From an uncultured Selenomonadales bacterium (lineage in GTDB: Bacteria; Bacillota; Negativicutes; Selenomonadales; Selenomonadaceae): a stretch of 64,000 nt of DNA. The DNA is taken from the NCBI GenBank assembly GCA_947304355.1, contig CAMZAX010000005.1, positions 1 through 64,000 of the forward strand, in the 5' to 3' direction. A program made the translations under genes and the position numbers. Below are positions 10,028 through 60,972 of this stretch, piece after piece (position 1 is the first letter of the stretch; each line of letters opens with the position of its first letter). The notes beneath the pieces are model-generated. The model was not told where the DNA came from, searched no databases, and was given only the letters and a program-made list of their open reading frames with translations.

Positions 10028-10141
10028 TTGAGCAAAGATCTTAAAGCCGAATTGGACGCGATAGCCAAGGGCGAGCAACTCAGCGAAGAGGATCTCGACA
10101 ACGTCGCCGGCGGCACCCACGCACAGAACATTCAGCTTTAA
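10028..10141 (+). CDS. Short peptide with double-glycine leader (37 aa)
   Basis: TTG start behind AAAGAGTGA. The 37-residue product ends in LSEEDLDNVAGG followed by only THAQNIQL. The LSEEDLDxVAGG pattern is the leader type cut by C39 peptidase domains of bacteriocin ABC exporters, cleaving after GG. The remaining eight residues are very short for a bacteriocin, so it may be a signal peptide, a decayed precursor or a spare leader. It lies 75 bases before a second peptide gene with a matching leader. A matching C39 exporter is encoded at 56515-58731, 46 kb away. Confidence 0.6.
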   Translation: MSKDLKAELDAIAKGEQLSEEDLDNVAGGTHAQNIQL

Positions 10142-10216: not shown

Positions 10217-10579
10217 ATGTCTGAAAAAGAAAAGACTCCCGAAACTCTTACCGAAGAGCAACTCGACGAAGTGGCGGGCGGCTCCAGAGAACAGTTCAAC
10301 GAAATTTGCGAACTGCTCGGCAAGAGCCCCACATTCAGCACGCGCAACGGCATTCGCACGTATCTCAAAGAACATTGCGGAATCGGCGTGGCGCATTGGA
10401 ACACCGGCGACAGAATGTCAAGCGGCACCGGCGACGCCGAATTCGTCGACCTTTACGGGCAATGGTACAAGCCTGGCACTCCCATTTCCTACAAAAACGT
10501 TTACCATATTATCAAGAACGGAGCATACAGGGAAGGCATCGGTACTCACGGCTACGCGGAACATTGGGAACCGATGTAA
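10217..10579 (+). CDS. GG-leader secreted peptide precursor (120 aa)
   Basis: ATG behind AGGTGA. The leader LTEEQLDEVAGG ends at residue 22, leaving a core of about 98 residues. The core is rich in aromatic residues, Gly and His, with two Cys (CELLGKSP and HCGIGVAHW regions). No family is recognised. The leader fits C39-peptidase processing, as in the NHLP and class II bacteriocin families. It is followed by a terminator at 10605-10630, making a two-gene unit with the 37-residue peptide. No immunity or modification gene is adjacent, so activity as a toxin, signal or structural peptide is undecided. Confidence 0.7.
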   Translation: MSEKEKTPETLTEEQLDEVAGGSREQFNEICELLGKSPTFSTRNGIRTYLKEHCGIGVAHWNTGDRMSSGTGDAEFVDLYGQWYKPGTPISYKNVYHIIKNGAYREGIGTHGYAEHWEPM

Positions 10580-50825: not shown

Positions 50826-51014
50826 ATGATACCCGTGATAATCGGCGCGGCTGTCGGTGCGGCGGCGGCTTACAAATTTTTTGACGGCAAGCGCGAAAAA
50901 AAATCCCGCGAAGAAACTTTCACGCGTTACATTTCCGAAGAGGACGTTCCGCCCGACGTGCTTGAAAAAATTCGCGCCAAACGTCGCGCACGGCTCGGCA
51001 AGGACGATTGTTAA
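50826..51014 (+). CDS. Small membrane-anchored protein (62 aa)
   Basis: Residues 1-19 form a Gly/Ala hydrophobic helix (MIPVIIGAAVGAAAAYKFF); the remainder is charged and cytoplasmic (DGKREKKSREETF, DVPPDVLEKIRAKRRARLG). No family recognised. ATG at 50826 has GGAGGCGGTG upstream. It lies just ahead of the sigma factor gene, whose promoter overlaps its last codons; an anti-sigma role is conceivable but unsupported. Confidence 0.6.
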   Translation: MIPVIIGAAVGAAAAYKFFDGKREKKSREETFTRYISEEDVPPDVLEKIRAKRRARLGKDDC

Positions 51015-51079: not shown

Positions 51080-51628
51080 ATGGCTGACATCGAATATTAC
51101 AACGAGCTTGCTCAACGGGCGACGACCGACGAAGACGCCTTCGAGGAGCTTTACGAACATTTTTTCCCGCGAGTGTACAATTTCATTTTCGCGCGGCTGA
51201 AAAACGCTGCGGACGCCGACGACGTGACGAGCATCGCTTTCATTAAGATGAACGAGAACTTGGAGCGGTACAATCCCGCCGTCGCCGCCTTTTCGACGTG
51301 GCTGTTCCGTATCGCGTCCAATGCGATAATCGACCACACGCGCCACCACGAAAAAAGTCAGGAGACCGAGTGGGAAGAATTCTTCGACCCCGCCGCGCCC
51401 GAATATCAAGAGCCCGAAGCGCAGGCAATGACCAACGAGGACAATCGCGAATTGTTTGAGGCACTGGACAAGCTCAACGAACGCGAACGCCGTATCGTCG
51501 AACTGAAATATTTTTCGGACATGGACACGCGCGCAATCGCCGAACTGATGTCGATGACCGAAGGCAACGTCCGCACGACGCTTTCACGCACGCTTACAAA
51601 GCTCAAGAAATTTTTAACCGACGTGTAA
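51080..51628 (+). CDS. Sigma-70 family (ECF-like) RNA polymerase sigma factor
   Basis: 182 residues with only region 2 (AFEELYEHFFPRVYNFIFAR, DADDVTSIAFIKMNENL, FSTWLFRIASNAIIDHTR) and region 4 (LNERERRIVELKYFSDMD, AIAELMSMTEGNVRTTLSRT). ATG at 51080 is preceded by AGGAAAGGCGGAG. It stands directly upstream of a leader-type peptide gene and close to the export operon, so it may control them; no anti-sigma factor is recognised. Cytoplasmic. Confidence 0.88.
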   Translation: MADIEYYNELAQRATTDEDAFEELYEHFFPRVYNFIFARLKNAADADDVTSIAFIKMNENLERYNPAVAAFSTWLFRIASNAIIDHTRHHEKSQETEWEEFFDPAAPEYQEPEAQAMTNEDNRELFEALDKLNERERRIVELKYFSDMDTRAIAELMSMTEGNVRTTLSRTLTKLKKFLTDV

Positions 51629-51683
51629 CAAATTCGCCGGCGCGACGTATAAGGTGCAGAAAACAACTTAAGGAGTGATTGAA

Positions 51684-51878
51684 ATGACGACGATAGAAAA
51701 CAAACTCGGCAACGTAGATTTCTCACAATTCAGCAAGGTGAAGGACAGCCTCCTGTTCCGCTTGAAACTTCGCCGCCGCGCCATCAACGAGGAAATGAGC
51801 CTTGAAGATCTCGACCAAGTCGCCGCAGCCGGCAACCCGAACTTGAAGCCCGACTTCAACAAGATACCCGTCGTATGA
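51684..51878 (+). CDS. Leader-type small peptide (64 aa), probable export substrate
   Basis: ATG behind AAGGAG. Basic N-terminal half (LLFRLKLRRRAINEE), then MSLEDLDQVAAAG and a 14-residue tail NPNLKPDFNKIPVV. MSLEDLDQVAaaG aligns with LSEEDLDNVAGG and LTEEQLDEVAGG of the peptides near 10 kb, so a C39-type cut after AG or AAG is plausible, although the canonical GG is AG here. It lies between the sigma factor and the convergent export operon, and has its own terminator at 51885-51917. Confidence 0.65.
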   Translation: MTTIENKLGNVDFSQFSKVKDSLLFRLKLRRRAINEEMSLEDLDQVAAAGNPNLKPDFNKIPVV

Positions 51879-52318: not shown

Positions 52319-53818
52319 TTATTCGTCGAAGGGCGCGGGCGATTCTTTTATGACTTCCGCGTCCGGGTCGTCATGATTGATTGTCGCCGCCTCCAGGGAT
52401 TTCGGGGAAGATTTGCCGGACTGCTCGGCTTCGGTGTAAAGGAGCGCGTCAATCACGACGGGCACGCCCATTGCCTTTTCAAGTTGGGCGCGGCTCGTAT
52501 TGTAGTTGTAAACGGCGGTGTAGTAATTGTTGCGCGTCTCGACAACCTTTTCCTGCGCATTCATGACGTTCAAGTTGGTATCGACGCCCTCGACGTAGCG
52601 AATCTTCGCGATAGAGAATTCTTCCTCGGCCTTGTCGACGGCGGCTGCTGTCGTCGCGATATTTTTTTCGGCGGTTTTAAGGGCGATGTAGGCTCTGTGA
52701 ACTTCAAGCTGAATCGTTTCGATTTGCTGGCGGGCGATGGATTCGGCTTTGCGCTCGGCGGCCTTGTATTGCTGAACCTGCGCGGACGTTATGCCGTTGT
52801 CGAAAATATTCCAGCTCATTTCCAGACCGATTGACCAACGCTCGTTGCGGTGGTTTGCGTTAAGGTAACTTTCGCCCGAACTGCTCCCTTGAACGATGGC
52901 TGAAATGTTCGGGCGATAACCTGCCTTCGCGGAGGAAACGTCTGCACCGGCGCGCTTGACGGCGTAAACGGCGGCAATCCCGTCGGGGCGGTGACTCAGC
53001 GCGTAGTCAAGGCAATCGGCTTCGGACAGATTGTATTGCACGAAGTCAATCTTATCGCCGGCGGCAATCTCGGTGTCGACGGGCAAGCCCAAGACGTTGT
53101 TGAGTTGCGCGACGGCGGTTTGATAATTGCCCTGCGCGGTGTTCAAGCTCTGTTGGCTGTTGGCAAGCTGAACGTTGGTGGCAAGCACGTCGGACTTTGC
53201 GACGGTGCCGACTTCGTATTGGACGGAAACCATGCGCAAATGTTCCTGCAAAAGCTGAACCGCCTGCTCCTGCACGCCGACCAAGCTCCGTTGCTGAAGG
53301 ACTTGATAATAAGCCGAAGCCGCCTGATACTTGACTTGCTGACGGGAATTTTCAAGCACCAAATCAGCGGCGTTAAGGCTGTAACGTGCCGCCTCGCGCT
53401 GATTCTCCAGACGCCCGCCCGTGTAAATCGGCATACGCAGTGACAGGCTGTGCGTCGCCTCGTAATTGTAACTCGGATAAAGATTCATGTTTATGGGCTC
53501 ATAGCCGTACTCCGCTCTGTGCTGCGCGTTTCGCATCCTGGCATTGGCTCTGTTAGCGCGATAGCCTGTGTTATAATATTTGCCGCCGATTCGATACAGC
53601 GACGAAGCCCAACTTAACATTGGACCGGAACTGCGGCGCACGGCGGACAGTTGCCATTTGGCAGCCTCGCGGTCTTCCTCCGATTGTTCGATCAGGCGGT
53701 TGTTCTTCAACGCAAGTTCAATGGCGTCGTCGAGCGTCAAGGACATGCCGTCGGCGGCAAGGGTTGTGTTCGGGAAAAGCAATGCCGCCGTTGCCAATGC
53801 CGCCAAAAATTTTTTCAT
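52319..53818 (-). CDS. tolC: TolC-family outer-membrane channel of the export operon
   Basis: 499 residues: signal peptide (about 1-22, LAALATAALLFPNTTLAA), then two homologous helical/strand repeats of the outer membrane efflux family (LTLDDAIELALKNNRLIEQS near 27 and SWNIFDNGITSAQVQQYKAA near 340). It forms the trimeric outer-membrane duct joined to the HlyD adaptors. AAGGAG precedes the ATG; the gene follows the second ABC transporter by 13 bases. Its presence shows that the host has an outer membrane. Confidence 0.92.
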   Translation of the reverse strand: MKKFLAALATAALLFPNTTLAADGMSLTLDDAIELALKNNRLIEQSEEDREAAKWQLSAVRRSSGPMLSWASSLYRIGGKYYNTGYRANRANARMRNAQHRAEYGYEPINMNLYPSYNYEATHSLSLRMPIYTGGRLENQREAARYSLNAADLVLENSRQQVKYQAASAYYQVLQQRSLVGVQEQAVQLLQEHLRMVSVQYEVGTVAKSDVLATNVQLANSQQSLNTAQGNYQTAVAQLNNVLGLPVDTEIAAGDKIDFVQYNLSEADCLDYALSHRPDGIAAVYAVKRAGADVSSAKAGYRPNISAIVQGSSSGESYLNANHRNERWSIGLEMSWNIFDNGITSAQVQQYKAAERKAESIARQQIETIQLEVHRAYIALKTAEKNIATTAAAVDKAEEEFSIAKIRYVEGVDTNLNVMNAQEKVVETRNNYYTAVYNYNTSRAQLEKAMGVPVVIDALLYTEAEQSGKSSPKSLEAATINHDDPDAEVIKESPAPFDE

Positions 53819-53831
53819 ACCGAATCACTCC

Positions 53832-56522
53832 TTAAGCCGTTTGACGTTTAACCAAGTTCGCGAAGATGCCGCCTTGCGCAACAAGTTCGTCGAAGGTACC
53901 GTTTTCGACAATCCTGCCCGCGTCCATGACCAAAATTCTGTCGCAGTTGCGAATCGTCGACAGGCGGTGGGCAACGATTATCCGCGTCGCTTTGAGATTG
54001 TCCAGGCTTTTGGTTACGATTGCCTGCGTGCGGTTGTCGAGCGCGCTGGTCGCCTCGTCGAAGATGAGAATTGACGGCTTTGTAACCAACGCACGGGCGA
54101 TAAGAATTCTCTGGCGTTGACCGCCGCTGATGTTCGTTGAGCCTTCGCTGATAACGGTTTGCATACCCATTGGCATCATCGCGATATCTTGAGCAATGCC
54201 CGCCGCCTCCGCCGCCTGCCACGCGTCTTCTTGCGTCAAGGCGTTCGTGCCGATTATGTTCGTGAAGATGTCGCCCTGCATGAGCTGACCGTTTTGTAAG
54301 ACAACGCCCATTTGCGTGCGCACGCTCGGCAAGTTCAGTTCAGCCAAGTCTTGACCGTCGAAGTAGATTGAACCTTTGCGCGGCGTCTCGAAACCCAAAA
54401 GCAATCGGACAAGCGTGGATTTGCCGCAACCGGAACGCCCAACGATAGCGACGTTTTCGCCCGCCGCAATCTTGAAGCTGACATCGTGCAAAACGTCATG
54501 ACCTTCGTTGTAGGCGAAGGTGACGTTGTTTAGTTCAATCGCGCCGCTTAAAATGCCCGCGTCCGCCTTTTCGCCGACGCTTTCGGGCACTTCCTTGAGT
54601 ATCGGGCGCAAGTTTTCAATATGCGGCTGAATCGCGAAGTACTGACCAATAAGCGGGACAATGCCGTTGAGCGTGGCGTTGAAGCTTGAGAACGCGCCTT
54701 GGAACGCAATGAACTGCGCGTAGGTTATGCCCTGTACCATTTGCCCGTTGGGGCCGACTTCGTTCGTGCCGTAGACCGCGATATAGTACAGAGCCATCGT
54801 CAAGATAAACGGTTGCACGCTGCCGATAATCGCGTTGTAGTTGCTTTGCCAGCGCAATTTCAAGTTCCACTTCCACGTTTCGCCGAAGACGCCGCTCCAA
54901 AGCCAGTAAGCCTGATTCTCTGCGCCGTGTTCGCGGAACTTGGCGAGCCCCTTGAAAATCTGTTGGACAATGCCAGCCTCTTGGTTGGTCGCGTTGATTA
55001 AGTTGCGTTGGAAGCCGATGACACGCCGATAAATGAACGCCGTGATAATCGCGTAGATGAACCAGATGACAATCGCCACAGCCGTGAGCTTGAGGCTGTA
55101 GTAGCACATGAGGAAAACGCTCCAGAAGCTGAAGACGAAGCCGAACAGACTGCCGATAAAGTCCGCGCTGACCAAACCTTTGATGACGCTGATGCCTTGC
55201 ATGCGGCTTGCCAATTCGCCGGAGGTGAATCGGCGGAAAAATTTCGTCGGCAAGGTAAGCAGTCGTCCCCAAAGCGCGGCCTCGGTCGCCATGTTCATGC
55301 GCGTCGTTATACGCATGACGGCTATCGTGCGGACAATGCCCAATGACGCCGTCGTAAAGCTTGTGACCATGATGACTTGCGTGACGGTCGCGAGTCCTTG
55401 ACGGTCGAGAATCGGGATGATGTCGGCGAAAATCGTTTCCGTGACCAGCGGCATTGCCAACGGGATTATGCCCGCGACGAGGCTGATGACGATAACGGTT
55501 TTGTAATCGGTGAACCAACACTGCTTGAAGATAAACTTCATTAGGTCGAGAATACCCAATTCCCGCGCAGGAAAGCCCGCGTAACACTCAAACGCGCTCT
55601 TGTCAATCTTCGCGGCAACGTCGTCGGTTATCGGAATGCCGTCGGGCTTGTCCTTGGTGATGAGCTTGTATTTGCCGGGCGCGGTCGGCACGAAGACGGA
55701 AAGCGTCTTGTTTTCGCCATAGTAGCCGATGATTACGCCGCTGTCGTTTTTGTGCCAATCTTCGACGAGTTCGATAAGGCGCATTTGCATGTTGCCCTTT
55801 TGCACGAGCCGCCGAATCAATCTGATTTGGTCGAGCTTGTGAACGATCTCCGGGTCGATTTTGATGTTGTCGGTCGGCATATTCAGCGCGACGGCAGCCC
55901 GCCGCACGATAAACGACGCCTCCTCAAGACGTTCGACGTGTTCGGTCGTTTCGCTGTATTGGGTCGTCTCTTCGCCGAGCAGGTTGGCTATCGAGTTGTC
56001 GAGCAGTCGCCGCTGATTGCGCGAGCGGACTTCAACGCGTTGCGAGAAACGTTTATCTTCGGCTTGAAAGCGCACGCCCAACAGCATGGAAAAAATTTCT
56101 TCGTTTTCGCGGAAAGCTTCGGTCAAATCGTCCGCGTCTTCGAGTACCGAGCCGTCGAGCCACGTGCCCAAAACGTCGTCACCCTTGTCGGCAAGCAGGC
56201 GCAACCACGGCAACTTAATCAGTTCGACGAACCAGTTGCGCATGAAATTTTTCAGCGCGTCGGGCGACACTTCGTCGAACGTGAGAATTTTTATTTGCGT
56301 GTCTTCAGTGGCGTAGATAAGCGTTTCCGTCTGTTCAAATTCGTCGAGCGACGGGAAGGCAGCTTCGCCCGTTGCCAACTCAACGAGGAATTGCTGACGG
56401 AAGGAACCTTCGGCGCGAGTGACGGCGTAGACTTCGACCTTGCCCGAATCAATCAGCGCGAGCCGTTCGCCGTCTTCAAGGCGGACGCGTTCGCCTGCCA
56501 AGAGAGAAAAATTTTTACTCAA
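53832..56522 (-). CDS. NHLM-type bacteriocin exporter ABC transporter, second subunit
   Basis: 896 residues: N-terminal regulatory-type region of about 330 residues with a cyclic-nucleotide-binding-like start (LEDGERLALIDSGKVEVYAV) and no peptidase, then six membrane helices (about 340-620) and an ATPase domain with VGRSGCGKSTLVRLL, NISGGQRQRILIARAL and ILIFDEATSALD. This layout is that of NHLM (nitrile-hydratase leader microcin) ABC proteins, which pair with a C39 ABC protein. TTG at 56522 follows AGGAGAG and overlaps the preceding stop by 8 bases. Confidence 0.88.
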   Translation of the reverse strand: MSKNFSLLAGERVRLEDGERLALIDSGKVEVYAVTRAEGSFRQQFLVELATGEAAFPSLDEFEQTETLIYATEDTQIKILTFDEVSPDALKNFMRNWFVELIKLPWLRLLADKGDDVLGTWLDGSVLEDADDLTEAFRENEEIFSMLLGVRFQAEDKRFSQRVEVRSRNQRRLLDNSIANLLGEETTQYSETTEHVERLEEASFIVRRAAVALNMPTDNIKIDPEIVHKLDQIRLIRRLVQKGNMQMRLIELVEDWHKNDSGVIIGYYGENKTLSVFVPTAPGKYKLITKDKPDGIPITDDVAAKIDKSAFECYAGFPARELGILDLMKFIFKQCWFTDYKTVIVISLVAGIIPLAMPLVTETIFADIIPILDRQGLATVTQVIMVTSFTTASLGIVRTIAVMRITTRMNMATEAALWGRLLTLPTKFFRRFTSGELASRMQGISVIKGLVSADFIGSLFGFVFSFWSVFLMCYYSLKLTAVAIVIWFIYAIITAFIYRRVIGFQRNLINATNQEAGIVQQIFKGLAKFREHGAENQAYWLWSGVFGETWKWNLKLRWQSNYNAIIGSVQPFILTMALYYIAVYGTNEVGPNGQMVQGITYAQFIAFQGAFSSFNATLNGIVPLIGQYFAIQPHIENLRPILKEVPESVGEKADAGILSGAIELNNVTFAYNEGHDVLHDVSFKIAAGENVAIVGRSGCGKSTLVRLLLGFETPRKGSIYFDGQDLAELNLPSVRTQMGVVLQNGQLMQGDIFTNIIGTNALTQEDAWQAAEAAGIAQDIAMMPMGMQTVISEGSTNISGGQRQRILIARALVTKPSILIFDEATSALDNRTQAIVTKSLDNLKATRIIVAHRLSTIRNCDRILVMDAGRIVENGTFDELVAQGGIFANLVKRQTA

Positions 56523-58731
56523 GCGCGTCACTCTCCTGACTTCGTTCCTCAATCAAGCGGCGATAAGCCCCGTCGTGTTGAATCATTTCGCGGTGGGTGC
56601 CGCGTTCGACGACTTGCCCTTGTTGCAGAACGATAATCTCGTCGCAGTCGCGAATCGTCGACAGGCGGTGCGCAACGATTAGGCACGAACAGCCGCGCCG
56701 CCGAATATTTTCCAACACGGTCTGTTCGGTCATGGGGTCGAGCGCGCTGGTTGCCTCGTCGAGAATCAACAGCGACGGATTGTTGGCAAGGGCGCGGGCA
56801 ATTTCCAAACGTTGACGTTGCCCGCCGCTGAAATTCAAGCCGCCTTCCGAGACTTCCGAATCGTAGCCCTTGTCGAGCATTAAAATATCGTCGTGAATGC
56901 ACGCGTCCTTCGCCGCCTGAATTATATCGCTGCGCCGAACCGAATCGTCGAACAGCGCGAGGTTTTGCGCGACGGTGCCCGTGATTTGAAAAACGTCCTG
57001 GTCGACGGCGGAAATCGAGTTGACGATAACTGCGCGGGGCAGTTCACGCCGAATCACGCCGTCGAAACGAACTTCGCCGCTCCACTCCTCGTAAATGCCC
57101 GTGACGACTTTGGCGACGGTTGACTTGCCCGAACCGCTTGCGCCGACGACCGCCACCCAATGCCCCGGCTCAATGTGCAGGGAAAATTTGCTAATCAACG
57201 GCTTTTCCAGCGGGCTGTAGCCGAAGTCAATGTCCTTAAGCTCCAATTCGCCGTTCAAGCGTTCAATCGGCTGACCTTCGGGAAGTTTTTCGTCGCGGCA
57301 ATTCAAGCTGTCGATTTCGTATTTGCGCACGTCGTCGAGGCGTTGCATTTGCATTTCGGTCGTCTGCAACGTCGAGCCCAAACCCAAAAGTGCGCCGACG
57401 GGTGCCTGGAAACTGCCCATGAGCGATTGGAACGCGGTGAACATGCCCGCCGTCAAAACGCCTTCCATAATCGAGAAGCCGCCGATTGTCATAATCAGTG
57501 CGCCGTTTATGCCGCCGAATAGCGTCGGGATAATCGTCGCGGTCATCTGCCACAGCGCAACGTCTTGCCCGGCTTTGAGGACTTTGGCGCGATAGCCCGC
57601 CCATTTCGCGAAGAAATCGGACTCATTGCCGTTCGCCTTAATCGTTTCAATCATCATCAAGCCGTTCATCGTCGTGCCGTATTCCTTGCCGGCGTCCTGT
57701 TGAATTTTCATATTCATATCGGTGAGGTGTCGACGGAGCGCGAAGAACATGATTATGTTGATACTTGAAAAGAACACGCCGATTAGCGTCAACGTCACGT
57801 GGTATTGGAGCAACAACACCAAATAAAAAATCGCGACGAGGAAATCCAAAATCGCCGTCGCTGCCGGTCCCGACAAGACGCCCGCGATTGATTCGTTGAA
57901 GTTGACGCGCGACGCCACTTCGCCCGCGAAACGCTGATTGAAGAACTGCATGGGCAGGCGGAGCAAATGCCAGAAGAAACTGCTTGAATCGGCGAGCGTC
58001 AATTTTTTCTGCCAGCGCGTGAGGATAACGGCTTGCAACCACGTCATGACGCCGCAGACGACCCAAGAGACCGTCATTGCCAAGCAGAAGTTGAACATCC
58101 AATCGGGGTGCTTTTTTGTCAAAATGTCGTCGAGGAAAATTTGACTGAAGACCGGCGACGCGAGCCCCGGAATTATCATGCCGAGGTTGAGCAGGATGAT
58201 GAATAGCACCGCCCACTTGTCCTGCGCGAGTTTTCTTGCCACGTCCTTGAAAATGTTGTAGCGTTCGCCTTCGGGCTTGAATTCTTCGCCAGGGACGACG
58301 TGCAACGCCACGCCCGTGTAAGACGTGCGGAAGTCAGCCCACTTGACGGTGCGTCTGCCCATCGCGGGGTCGTTGAGATAAACCGTGTCGCCCTTGATGC
58401 CTTCCAAAACGACAAAGTGATTAAATTCCCAGTGAATAATCAGCGGGAACGCCATAACTTCTTTCAAGCGGTCGGCATTCCAGCGATAACCGTTGGCGGT
58501 GCAGCCGCGATTGCGAGCCGCCCGAATCACGCAACTTGCTTTGGAGCCGTCGCGATTGACGCCGCATTCTTGACGCAACTTTTCGAGCGGGAGCCACAAG
58601 CCGTAATGCGACAAAATCATCGACAGCGACGCCGCGCCGCATTCGGTTGCCTCCATCTGCAAAATCGTCGGCACCTTGACGCGCGAATTGCCGAAGCCGA
58701 AGAAATCTTTTATCTTGTCTAAAAAATTCAT
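56515..58731 (-). CDS. NHLM-type ABC exporter with C39 leader peptidase
   Basis: 738 residues: C39 cysteine peptidase (residues 1-140) with Gln25, Cys31 (EATECGAASL), His105 (FNHFVVLEG) and Asp121 (LNDPAMG), so the triad is intact; six membrane helices (about 165-450); ATPase with VGASGSGKSTVAKVV, LNFSGGQRQRLEIARAL and LLILDEATSALD. It cuts GG-type leaders and pumps the freed peptide across the inner membrane. The peptides at 10.0-10.6 and 51.7 kb carry suitable leaders. Its start lies at the edge of a heptad array that also supplies the AGGA ribosome site. Confidence 0.92.
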   Translation of the reverse strand: MNFLDKIKDFFGFGNSRVKVPTILQMEATECGAASLSMILSHYGLWLPLEKLRQECGVNRDGSKASCVIRAARNRGCTANGYRWNADRLKEVMAFPLIIHWEFNHFVVLEGIKGDTVYLNDPAMGRRTVKWADFRTSYTGVALHVVPGEEFKPEGERYNIFKDVARKLAQDKWAVLFIILLNLGMIIPGLASPVFSQIFLDDILTKKHPDWMFNFCLAMTVSWVVCGVMTWLQAVILTRWQKKLTLADSSSFFWHLLRLPMQFFNQRFAGEVASRVNFNESIAGVLSGPAATAILDFLVAIFYLVLLLQYHVTLTLIGVFFSSINIIMFFALRRHLTDMNMKIQQDAGKEYGTTMNGLMMIETIKANGNESDFFAKWAGYRAKVLKAGQDVALWQMTATIIPTLFGGINGALIMTIGGFSIMEGVLTAGMFTAFQSLMGSFQAPVGALLGLGSTLQTTEMQMQRLDDVRKYEIDSLNCRDEKLPEGQPIERLNGELELKDIDFGYSPLEKPLISKFSLHIEPGHWVAVVGASGSGKSTVAKVVTGIYEEWSGEVRFDGVIRRELPRAVIVNSISAVDQDVFQITGTVAQNLALFDDSVRRSDIIQAAKDACIHDDILMLDKGYDSEVSEGGLNFSGGQRQRLEIARALANNPSLLILDEATSALDPMTEQTVLENIRRRGCSCLIVAHRLSTIRDCDEIIVLQQGQVVERGTHREMIQHDGAYRRLIEERSQESDALE

Positions 58732-58771
58732 TCCTAATCCCTACTAGTTCCTAGTTCCTAGTTCCTAGTTC
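58732..58771. repeat. Heptad repeat array, TAGTTCC family, within the export operon
   Basis: On the operon's sense strand: stop TGA of the hlyD gene, then AGGAACT units, then AGTAGGGATTAGG running into the ATG of the C39 ABC gene. The end AGTAGGGATTAGG is identical to that after paaK. Confidence 0.88.
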
Positions 58772-58772
58772 C

Positions 58773-59735
58773 TCATCTGCTCCTAAGCCACTGGCTGAGC
58801 TTGTAGAAAACTTTTTCAATCGGCGGCTTGCGTTCAATGATAATCGAGCCCGTGCAGAACGAGCCCGCCGTTATCGGTTTGTGTTCGCCGACATGCGAAG
58901 TCCACAAGTAGCCCGACTTGTCGTCCGCGTCTTTAACCAGGTCGAAAGTCACTTCCATGAGCGACGAGTTTTGCGCCTGAAAAAGCCACTGCGCGAGCTG
59001 CGCGTTGCCGATGTGTTGCTGAAGACCCTGCGCGGTTATCGGGTATTGCGAAACGGTGCGAACGACGCCGATTAGTGAGCCCGTCTGCGAAACGTCCGCG
59101 CCGTTGGGTGCAAGCTGAATTGTCATGCCGGGTTCGACGCGTTTGCCCTTGTCGAGCGGGATATAGAGCAAGCCCGTCAAGTCGTCGCGGTTTTGCGTCA
59201 TGCGCACGGAACAAATCGGCGTGCCCGCAGTGACGAGCGTCCCGACGTCCACCATGACTTCATCAACAATGCCGTCGTAGTCGCTGTAAATATCTTCCGC
59301 CACGTCCTGTTGATAGCGTTTTGCGTCGTATTGGTAAGCGCGTCCCATTGCGTCGCGGTCGCTGGAGGCGAGCCCCATGCCGTATTGCGCCATGCGCGTG
59401 TCGGCGGATTGTTGAGCCTGTTCCATGTGCGCGATTAAGTCGCCTTTTTTAATCCTCATGCCGGGGCTTATGTAAAGTTGCGCGATTTTCCCGTTGGCGG
59501 TGTGCGAAACGTTCATCAAGCCCGCCGAGTCCATTATAAGACCCATGCCGTCCGCTTTGACCGTGAACGCGCCGTAAATAGACCAAAGCACGACTGCAAA
59601 CAATAAAACCAACACAGCGATTAATCCTATCCAGCTGACAGGCGTCGTGATTGGCAACATTGTATCGAGCTTTTCGGGCGAACGGAGTTTGTCGAGAGCC
59701 TCTTGGCTGAAGATTTGCGAATTCTGCTGTCTCAA
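58773..59735 (-). CDS. HlyD-family secretion protein of the NHLM export system
   Basis: 320 residues: a cytoplasmic start (QIFSQEALDKLRSPEKLDTM, typical for NHLM adaptors), one membrane helix near 35-55, then a lipoyl/barrel-sandwich domain (NGKIAQLYISPGMRIKKGDL) and beta-barrel. The hairpin is short. It links the C39 ABC protein to the outer-membrane duct. TTG start overlaps the stop of the preceding adaptor gene (TTGA), with GGTGGTG upstream. Confidence 0.88.
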   Translation of the reverse strand: MRQQNSQIFSQEALDKLRSPEKLDTMLPITTPVSWIGLIAVLVLLFAVVLWSIYGAFTVKADGMGLIMDSAGLMNVSHTANGKIAQLYISPGMRIKKGDLIAHMEQAQQSADTRMAQYGMGLASSDRDAMGRAYQYDAKRYQQDVAEDIYSDYDGIVDEVMVDVGTLVTAGTPICSVRMTQNRDDLTGLLYIPLDKGKRVEPGMTIQLAPNGADVSQTGSLIGVVRTVSQYPITAQGLQQHIGNAQLAQWLFQAQNSSLMEVTFDLVKDADDKSGYLWTSHVGEHKPITAGSFCTGSIIIERKPPIEKVFYKLSQWLRSR

Positions 59736-60904
59736 GTGTCACCACCGCCAATCAGCGTGACGGTGACTTTCATGCCGTCTTCGAGCCCTTCGGAGGCGGA
59801 CGTGATAACGGTTTCGCCTTCACTCAAGCCCGTGAGAATTTCAATGTATTCGCCGTCGTCCGCGCCCGTCTTGACTATGCGGCGTTCGATTGTGTTTTGC
59901 GGCGTGACGACGAAAACGGCATTGTGATTTGAATCGGTCATTGCGTCGAGCGGGACAGCCAACAGCTTGCGCGAACGCGAAGACCTCAACACTGCGCCGC
60001 TGTAGGCTTGCTGTTCGAGGAGCCCGACGCGGTTGTCGACTTCCCAAACGATTTTGCGGAGCGTCGCGGGTTCGTTCAAAGGCGGCATGATGTCGCGGAC
60101 GTGCACTGAAAAAATTTCGGCGTCGCCGCGATTGCCCGCCGCGTATTCGGTATCGTAAGCCTTGCGCAAAATTTGACTGCTTGTGAAACTCAATTCCGCG
60201 CTGTCGCCGACGGCAAGTCTTTTGGCGTGTTTGTCGTCGATTGGCATGGAAAAGAACAGCCGCGAGAAATTTCCGACCAGAGCGAGCGGCGTGCCCGCTT
60301 GAACATACGCGCCCTGTTGCTTGTACAGAATCAAGATTTCGCCGTCAATGGGAGCAATAACGTCTTGCCGCGCAGATTGAACGAGCAACTGTTCCTTGAC
60401 GGTTTGCGCCTCTTTCAACGCCGCCTCCGTCGCAAAGAACGCAGCTTCCGCCTCGTCGAATTTTTCTTTGGAAGTCGCGTCGCGATCCATCAATCGTTTA
60501 TAGCGGGCGTAGTTGTTGCGGGCGTTGGCGAGCTGCGCTTCCGCTTTGGCGATTGAACTGTCCGCCTGCTGAATCTTTAACGGTATGTCGTCGTTTACCA
60601 GCGAGAAAATCACTTGCCCGCGCCGCACGTTTGAGTTTTTCGAGACGAATATTTGATCGATGCGCCCGTCAATCAGCGCGACGGCGTCCGCCATTTCCTC
60701 CGAGTAAAGGTTGACCGTTTCCATTTCGATTCGCGGGTAGAAGTCGCGCACTTGCACCTTCGCGCCTTGGAGCGGGATTGTTCTATTCGCCATGCGTTCG
60801 GTGATTTGATTTTCGCCCGTTTGATTGAGCCACGCGCCGTAAGCAATCATCACTCCGGAAAACAGTAAGATAAGCACAAGCCCGACCATGTACGATTTTT
60901 TCAT
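59732..60904 (-). CDS. Periplasmic adaptor protein (HlyD/RND-MFP type), first gene of export operon
   Basis: 390 residues: N-terminal membrane anchor or signal (MVGLVLILLFSGVMIAYGAW), biotinyl-lipoyl halves (ALIDGRIDQIFVSKNSNVRR and APIDGEILILYKQQGAYVQ), a helical hairpin between them (about 105-180) and a C-terminal beta-barrel plus membrane-proximal domain. The hairpin is long enough to dock on TolC, which suggests a division of labour with the short NHLM adaptor downstream. Two adaptors in one operon is unusual. Confidence 0.87.
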   Translation of the reverse strand: MKKSYMVGLVLILLFSGVMIAYGAWLNQTGENQITERMANRTIPLQGAKVQVRDFYPRIEMETVNLYSEEMADAVALIDGRIDQIFVSKNSNVRRGQVIFSLVNDDIPLKIQQADSSIAKAEAQLANARNNYARYKRLMDRDATSKEKFDEAEAAFFATEAALKEAQTVKEQLLVQSARQDVIAPIDGEILILYKQQGAYVQAGTPLALVGNFSRLFFSMPIDDKHAKRLAVGDSAELSFTSSQILRKAYDTEYAAGNRGDAEIFSVHVRDIMPPLNEPATLRKIVWEVDNRVGLLEQQAYSGAVLRSSRSRKLLAVPLDAMTDSNHNAVFVVTPQNTIERRIVKTGADDGEYIEILTGLSEGETVITSASEGLEDGMKVTVTLIGGGDT

Positions 60905-60943: not shown

Positions 60944-60972
60944 AGTATAAAATAATTGGTTTGCACTGTCAA
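60944..60972 (-). promoter_or_regulatory. Promoter of the export operon
   Basis: Minus strand TTGACA (60967-60972), 17-base spacer, TATACT (60944-60949); AAAGGAGG follows before the first ATG. Close to consensus, so strong housekeeping expression is expected. Confidence 0.8.

Follow-up and report, generated by a model that had tools for sequence, protein, structure and literature searches.

Bacterial exporters with a C39 peptidase domain have been described in several settings. In the PCAT-type exporters, of which PCAT1 and ComA are examples, peptidase, permease and ATPase are joined in one chain. Sigma factors have likewise been tied to secretion, with flagellar sigma-28 coupled to export through FlgM, and actinomycete lantibiotics such as microbisporicin controlled by extracytoplasmic function (ECF) sigma factors. 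The NHLM/NHLP cassette is a further described system of this kind (Haft et al., 2010; PMC2887384). Here, we focus on a stretch of 64,000 nucleotides from an uncultured Selenomonadales bacterium (positions 1 to 64,000 of contig CAMZAX010000005.1, assembly GCA_947304355.1; hereafter the window), which holds a complete NHLM-type exporter operon with an ECF sigma factor gene beside it. From comparison of sequences, we consider it likely that this sigma factor governs a regulon devoted to C39/NHLM secretion. The sigma gene and the promoter common to its putative targets were absent from the original prediction, which had been made from the window alone.

The locus resembles the PCAT-type exporters in having a C39 peptidase fused with permease and ATPase as a single chain, but its genome holds at least 26 genes with double-glycine (GG) type leaders, and the machinery includes an outer membrane path. 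As with sigma-28 and FlgM, a sigma factor is tied to an export machine and a small exportable peptide is encoded behind the sigma factor's own promoter; here, however, the sigma factor is of the ECF type, the exporter is a C39 exporter, and the anti-sigma role of the peptide is putative. Microbisporicin-type lantibiotics also place a secreted peptide under an ECF sigma factor, yet within one modified-peptide cluster, in contrast to the many unlinked genes found here. In common with the NHLM/NHLP cassette, going by the part of its description available to us, are three transporter genes above the family cut-offs and several precursors per genome; the differences are that the cargo proteins scanned here fall below the NHLP and Nif11 models, that no linked modification enzyme turned up in the families searched, and that an extra RND-type adaptor, TolC, an ECF sigma factor and a common promoter are present (Haft et al., 2010; PMC2887384). 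The regulon would be new in its combination of ECF sigma factor, common promoter and C39/NHLM secretion. The open-access literature searched yielded no account of a secretion programme of this kind, most subscription papers lying outside the search, and the available portions of the Quinella genome paper (PMC9585023) and of a rumen bacteriocin survey (PMC13289728) contain no occurrence of bacteriocin in the former and none of Selenomonas or sigma factor in the latter.

In the proposed pathway, the ECF sigma factor (51080-51628) would recognise the promoter TGTAAC-N16-CGTATAA and so turn on many small, mostly solitary genes for proteins with double-glycine leaders of 17-32 aa, together with the adjacent gene for a conserved AAG-leader peptide. 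The neighbouring NHLM exporter would be made from a housekeeping-type promoter. The C39 domain of the exporter would then cut the leaders, and the cores, seemingly left unmodified and for the most part 80-106 aa long, would cross both membranes by way of the two adaptors and TolC. The regulatory part of the locus consists of the following elements:

51080..51628, + strand: ECF sigma factor of 182 aa (TIGR02937, 131 bits; cut-off 42.9)
51624..51652, + strand: ECF-type promoter TGTAAC-N16-CGTATAA, overlapping the sigma stop codon; the only exact site in the window
51684..51878, + strand: conserved 64-aa AAG-leader peptide (DFSQFSKVKDSL...EDLDQVAAAG), noted for its recurrence beside the sigma gene

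The best relatives of the sigma factor in the PDB are ECF sigma factors. Its gene sits between the exporter operon and the rest of the window, and the AAG peptide gene comes after it.

The host genome (2.41 Mb in 66 contigs, 88% complete, near Quinella) matched a leader-shaped DNA pattern 24 times, as against four times for the reversed pattern, and candidate substrates are therefore more numerous than chance would allow. Twenty of these matches are the leaders of small open frames, that of the peptide at 51684 included. Profile A1, built from 15 of the genome's own cargo proteins (whose own matches to it hold by construction), added six genes, which gives at least 26 genes with GG-type leaders on 13 contigs as a lower bound. 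In the contexts read by eye, these genes are single or grouped in pairs and triplets, and frequently lie amid housekeeping genes. The original prediction had proposed scattered substrates, at 10 kb and 51.7 kb, and a genome-wide search for their leaders; the dispersal of GG and AAG open frames is as it foresaw, but 16 of the 26 genes share one ECF-type promoter that is likely read by the sigma factor beside the exporter. This promoter, TGTAAC-N16-CGTATAA, is the element common to the cargo upstream regions. It occurs at 17 sites in the genome when one mismatch is allowed, 15 of them exact, and at none in the backward-read control. All but one of the 17 sites lie 30-90 nt 5' of the start of a GG-type leader, and the remaining one follows a leader remnant. 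A -35 element of the AAC type with a -10 element of the CGT type is the form of an ECF-like promoter, and both are present here.

The co-occurrence of promoter and sigma factor extends beyond this genome. Exact sites number 4-27 in 15 of 28 genus genomes (a subset of a 151-genome family sample, overlapping in part with the 80 named exporter loci discussed below) and 0 or 1 in the other 13, with a control of at most 1. The sigma factor, at 230 bits or more, is likewise found in 15 of the 28, and 14 genomes are both promoter-rich and sigma-bearing (Fisher p 8e-6). Of 39 promoter instances sampled from 29 loci (overlapping loci being counted twice), 30 precede a GG frame; 11 of the instances come from outside the genus, where seven precede GG frames (G062, G045, G032, G083, G002), so that a sampled site is followed by such a frame in five of the nine non-genus genomes with sites. 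The sigma gene also keeps company with the exporter: 55 sigma hits are spread over 50 genomes, and in 28 cases the same contig carries an NHLM exporter no more than 12 kb away, compared with about one expected at random. Conversely, of 80 named exporter loci, 36 have a sigma homologue in the flank, which in three cases is weak or partial. By eye, the sigma gene comes after ABC2, the second transporter gene of the cassette, in G016, G119 and G002, and after a TolC gene in G043. Of the 22 genus genomes that have the exporter, 19 match the cargo profile, versus one of six that do not have it (p 0.003), and GG-type leader frames occur in 28 of the 80 named exporter loci (69 in total, with cores partly unrelated, and none in reversed sequence).

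Could the common upstream sequence be no more than a relic of gene duplication, read by another sigma factor? The likeness does extend past both boxes, as the first five spacer positions hold 0.9-2.0 bits and the transcript start is also alike. Against this, the other 11 of 16 spacer positions hold only 0.17-0.84 bits at a fixed spacer length (figures from 15 sites selected at no more than one mismatch in the boxes, which are hence fixed by selection), and closely related genes carry different boxes in species with different sigma factors. Genomes G070, G098 and G136 have only distant homologues of the sigma factor; cargo is present in them and TGTAAC-N16-CGTATAA sites are not. Their cargo, fetched by protein profile, carries TGTCAT-N16-CATATA, a pattern that occurs 17, 18 and 22 times in the three genomes, once in G125 and not at all in the other 24 or in the control. 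One copy overlaps the end of a G070 sigma gene, just as the promoter copy in the window does. The promoter has changed together with the sigma factor. A core from the present genome (C33) and one from G070 are 90.9% identical over 88 residues, each behind its own species' promoter, and simple duplication is therefore no explanation. For the core comparison, the loci of G070, G098 and G136 were fetched in part by the variant pattern, and those fetched by cargo profile form the unbiased set. We regard the duplication account as improbable.

A second promoter change would be weaker evidence for a swap. Two sampled genes in G149 and two in G092 show an altered -35 element (TTAAT) with the -10 element kept or nearly so, and the sigma factor of these genomes reads NVGVVL where others read NVRxTL (by eye), in a helix that we take to be region 4.2. 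The case is the weaker because both genomes also have the usual form before cargo, at one gene in G149 and two sites in G092 (by position), and because the TTAAT form comes from a sample and not from a genome-wide count.

The exporter itself is encoded on the opposite strand from the sigma factor, in an operon with these elements:

60944..60972, - strand: sigma-70-like promoter TTGACA-N17-TATACT, found by sequence scan and different from the ECF-type site
59732..60904, - strand: adaptor 1 (HlyD1), RND-type periplasmic adaptor of 390 aa (TIGR01730, 175 bits; cut-off 94.9)
58773..59735, - strand: adaptor 2 (HlyD2), NHLM HlyD of 320 aa (TIGR03794, 221 bits; cut-off 156.2)
56515..58731, - strand: NHLM ABC1, C39 peptidase/permease/ATPase exporter (TIGR03796, 981 bits; cut-off 853.3)
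53832..56552, - strand: NHLM ABC2, permease/ATPase without C39 (TIGR03797, 739 bits; cut-off 709.4)
52319..53818, - strand: TolC-type outer membrane channel (Pfam OEP, 209 bits; cut-off 22)

All three NHLM transporter models (TIGR03794, TIGR03796 and TIGR03797) thus exceed their curated cut-offs, as an NHLM export cassette requires, and the order of two hlyD genes, C39 ABC, NHLM ABC and tolC is the one originally proposed. Adjacent genes overlap or are at most 41 nt apart. The near-consensus promoter was also correctly foreseen, as was a complete exporter behind this housekeeping-like element. As for the terminator, a GC-rich stem (CCCCCG/CGGGGG) followed by T's is visible by eye just 3' of tolC, although the motif scan does not list it. 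The C39 domain of ABC1 has, by eye, the Cys, His and Asp of TECGAAS, NHFVV and NDP, which we take to be the catalytic residues. The Cys is missing from both other C39 domains that were found in this genome. Close PDB matches to the exporter include bacteriocin-transporter and ComA structures. HlyD2 is short, at 320 aa versus the 421 positions of TIGR03794, with its best stretch (residues 142-314) on model positions 249-420; its counterparts in relatives' listed frames measure 313-323 aa with four exceptions. The part absent is probably the alpha-hairpin, and the RND-type adaptor HlyD1 may therefore provide the contact with TolC.

The nearest named relatives of the exporter (90-95%) belong to uncultured Selenomonadales or Selenomonadaceae, mostly with ruminant labels, followed by that of Quinella sp. 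2Q5 (87%). Among the best 80 named loci, counting those with room in the relevant direction, both adaptor genes (HlyD1 and HlyD2) precede ABC1 in 58 of 64, ABC2 follows it in 68 of 70, and TolC is near the exporter in 41 of 66 (35 downstream, 6 upstream). One locus labelled Candidatus Riflebacteria (L118:7896-13749) has two large proteins between ABC1 and ABC2, one with an adenylate/guanylate cyclase domain and the other outside the scan.

Since an NHLM exporter is at hand, the cargo might be expected to consist of precursors of ribosomally synthesized and post-translationally modified peptides (RiPPs), modified by unlinked enzymes. The exporter family was defined with RiPP systems, in the part of the report available to us (Haft et al., 2010; PMC2887384). 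The present genome encodes five SPASM proteins, among them a SCIFF-type maturase. At one sister locus (L101), moreover, Nif11-type precursors and a radical SAM protein accompany the same exporter type; enzyme-free use is therefore no feature of the whole exporter family. The original claim that modification genes accompany NHLM exporters thus holds for that locus, but not for the present exporter within the families searched. Its companion claim, that no modification enzyme is present, stands in part: LanC-like genes are absent from this genome and from all 21 genus genomes searched, no SPASM gene lies in the window or, by position, beside cargo, and no LanC-like or SPASM enzyme elsewhere is tied to the exporter or the precursors, YcaO, ATP-grasp and other enzyme families not having been searched. 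The SPASM proteins lie elsewhere in the genome; two of the five are NirJ1 and NirJ2, which like the maturase exceed their cut-offs, and two have no model above cut-off. SPASM genes occur in all 21 genus genomes searched, five of which lack both exporter and cargo matches, and the cores hold only 0-2 Cys (24 listed). Modification by unlinked enzymes is, in our estimation, very unlikely. At the sister locus (L101:2821-7767), eight precursors have Nif11-like leaders and six of them end in RRW; similar RRW precursors occur in L095 and L098.

For the cargo itself, an array of class II bacteriocins, placed with their exporter under a common switch, has some points in its favour. The GG leaders, 17-32 residues in 25 genes and 49 in the sigma-linked peptide, agree with the roughly 15-30 residues of class II leaders. 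The CTB bacteriocin model also gives weak scores of 14-22 bits against its cut-off of 32. One hydrophobic 50-residue core (C25) has GxxxG-type motifs. However, 19 of the 26 cores are 80-106 residues long (8-53 in the other seven), and no recurring immunity-like neighbour appeared in 15 contexts read by eye, with no model search of neighbours. A related core from L060 is predicted to be globular, with helices, a small beta part and a terminal helix (mean predicted local distance difference test score 82.3; core blocks 79-97), and probably folds. Comparison of 20 cargo proteins with relatives' DNA left one unmatched; in five the aligned core was too short, another five showed saturation, and the remaining nine yielded dN/dS values of 0.18-0.49 (eight) and 0.99 (one). 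The bacteriocin account is possible, though we lean against it. A weak pattern, D..FL..G ... N.YY..G..I.R..A, is common to the long cores. Among the ten of the genome's own GG proteins given to each scan, out of 26, no Pfam or NCBIfam model reached its cut-off; three gave 12.7-14.1 bits with TIGR03793 (NHLP; cut-off 50.9) and one gave 13.8 bits with TIGR03798 (Nif11; cut-off 32.3). The C25 peptide (L022:1350-1565) is unlike the remaining cargo, and two GG leaders at L122:6109-6370 each precede a very arginine-rich core.

Several observations weigh against a dedicated ECF sigma regulon. Ten of the 26 GG genes have no ECF-type promoter; three are second genes behind a promoter-bearing gene, and seven are unexplained, including both genes near 10 kb in the window:

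10028..10141, + strand: GG-leader open frame with an 8-residue core, identified by leader type; without ECF-type promoter
10217..10579, + strand: GG-leader protein with a 98-residue core of the common family (profile match 77.5 bits, the protein being itself a profile row); without ECF-type promoter

In G150 (86% complete), 13 promoters and 14 cargo matches were found but neither sigma factor nor exporter, and G149 has the sigma factor with one exact site. By count, the exact pattern does not exceed the control in genomes beyond the genus (9 of 123 hold 14 sites, versus 23 for the control), and within the genus some sampled exact sites, in G146, G108, G092, G142 and G125, have no GG frame behind them. 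Both -35 types stand before cargo in G092. The exporter occurs without any cargo match in G113, G140 and G142, and in several genomes sigma factor and exporter are on different contigs. The single dN/dS of 0.99 among nine measurable comparisons belongs here as well.

If the regulon exists as proposed, many rumen Selenomonadaceae would have a defined, switchable secretome, and promoter sequence would serve to predict what a C39 exporter carries. This cargo is likely to escape annotation, as the genes are small, often solitary and outside the families in the models tried. The natural sigma-promoter swaps could serve in tests of ECF specificity. The regulon would also give a handle on the products released by Quinella-like bacteria; Quinella is more abundant in some low-methane sheep, and whether it contributes is not known, according to the available part of its genome paper (PMC9585023).

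The AAG peptide is found beside the sigma gene in 13 of the 15 genus genomes with sigma: behind it in 12 (11 by script, G086 by eye) and in front of it in G149. It was not seen there in G103 and G092. More distant sigma loci have it in 4 of 16 cases. It has a conserved part, DFSxFSKVxDSLxxRL, and is a candidate feedback or anti-sigma peptide. One could imagine an exported anti-sigma, which would hold the sigma factor when the exporter is absent or blocked and be cleaved and secreted once the machine becomes available; the conserved motif, the promoter over the sigma stop codon and the presence at 13 of 15 sigma genes allow this idea, which we offer as a rather unlikely one. Were it true, cargo would be made only when able to leave, in a FlgM-like manner, through a C39/NHLM exporter. 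Directly 5' of the sigma gene, at 50826-51014 of the window, a small membrane-type protein is encoded that has no match in Pfam or NCBIfam, and similar frames precede the sigma gene in G134, G131 and G146. In G103 (L205), short tandem repeats of about 30 nt lie shortly 3' of the sigma stop codon.

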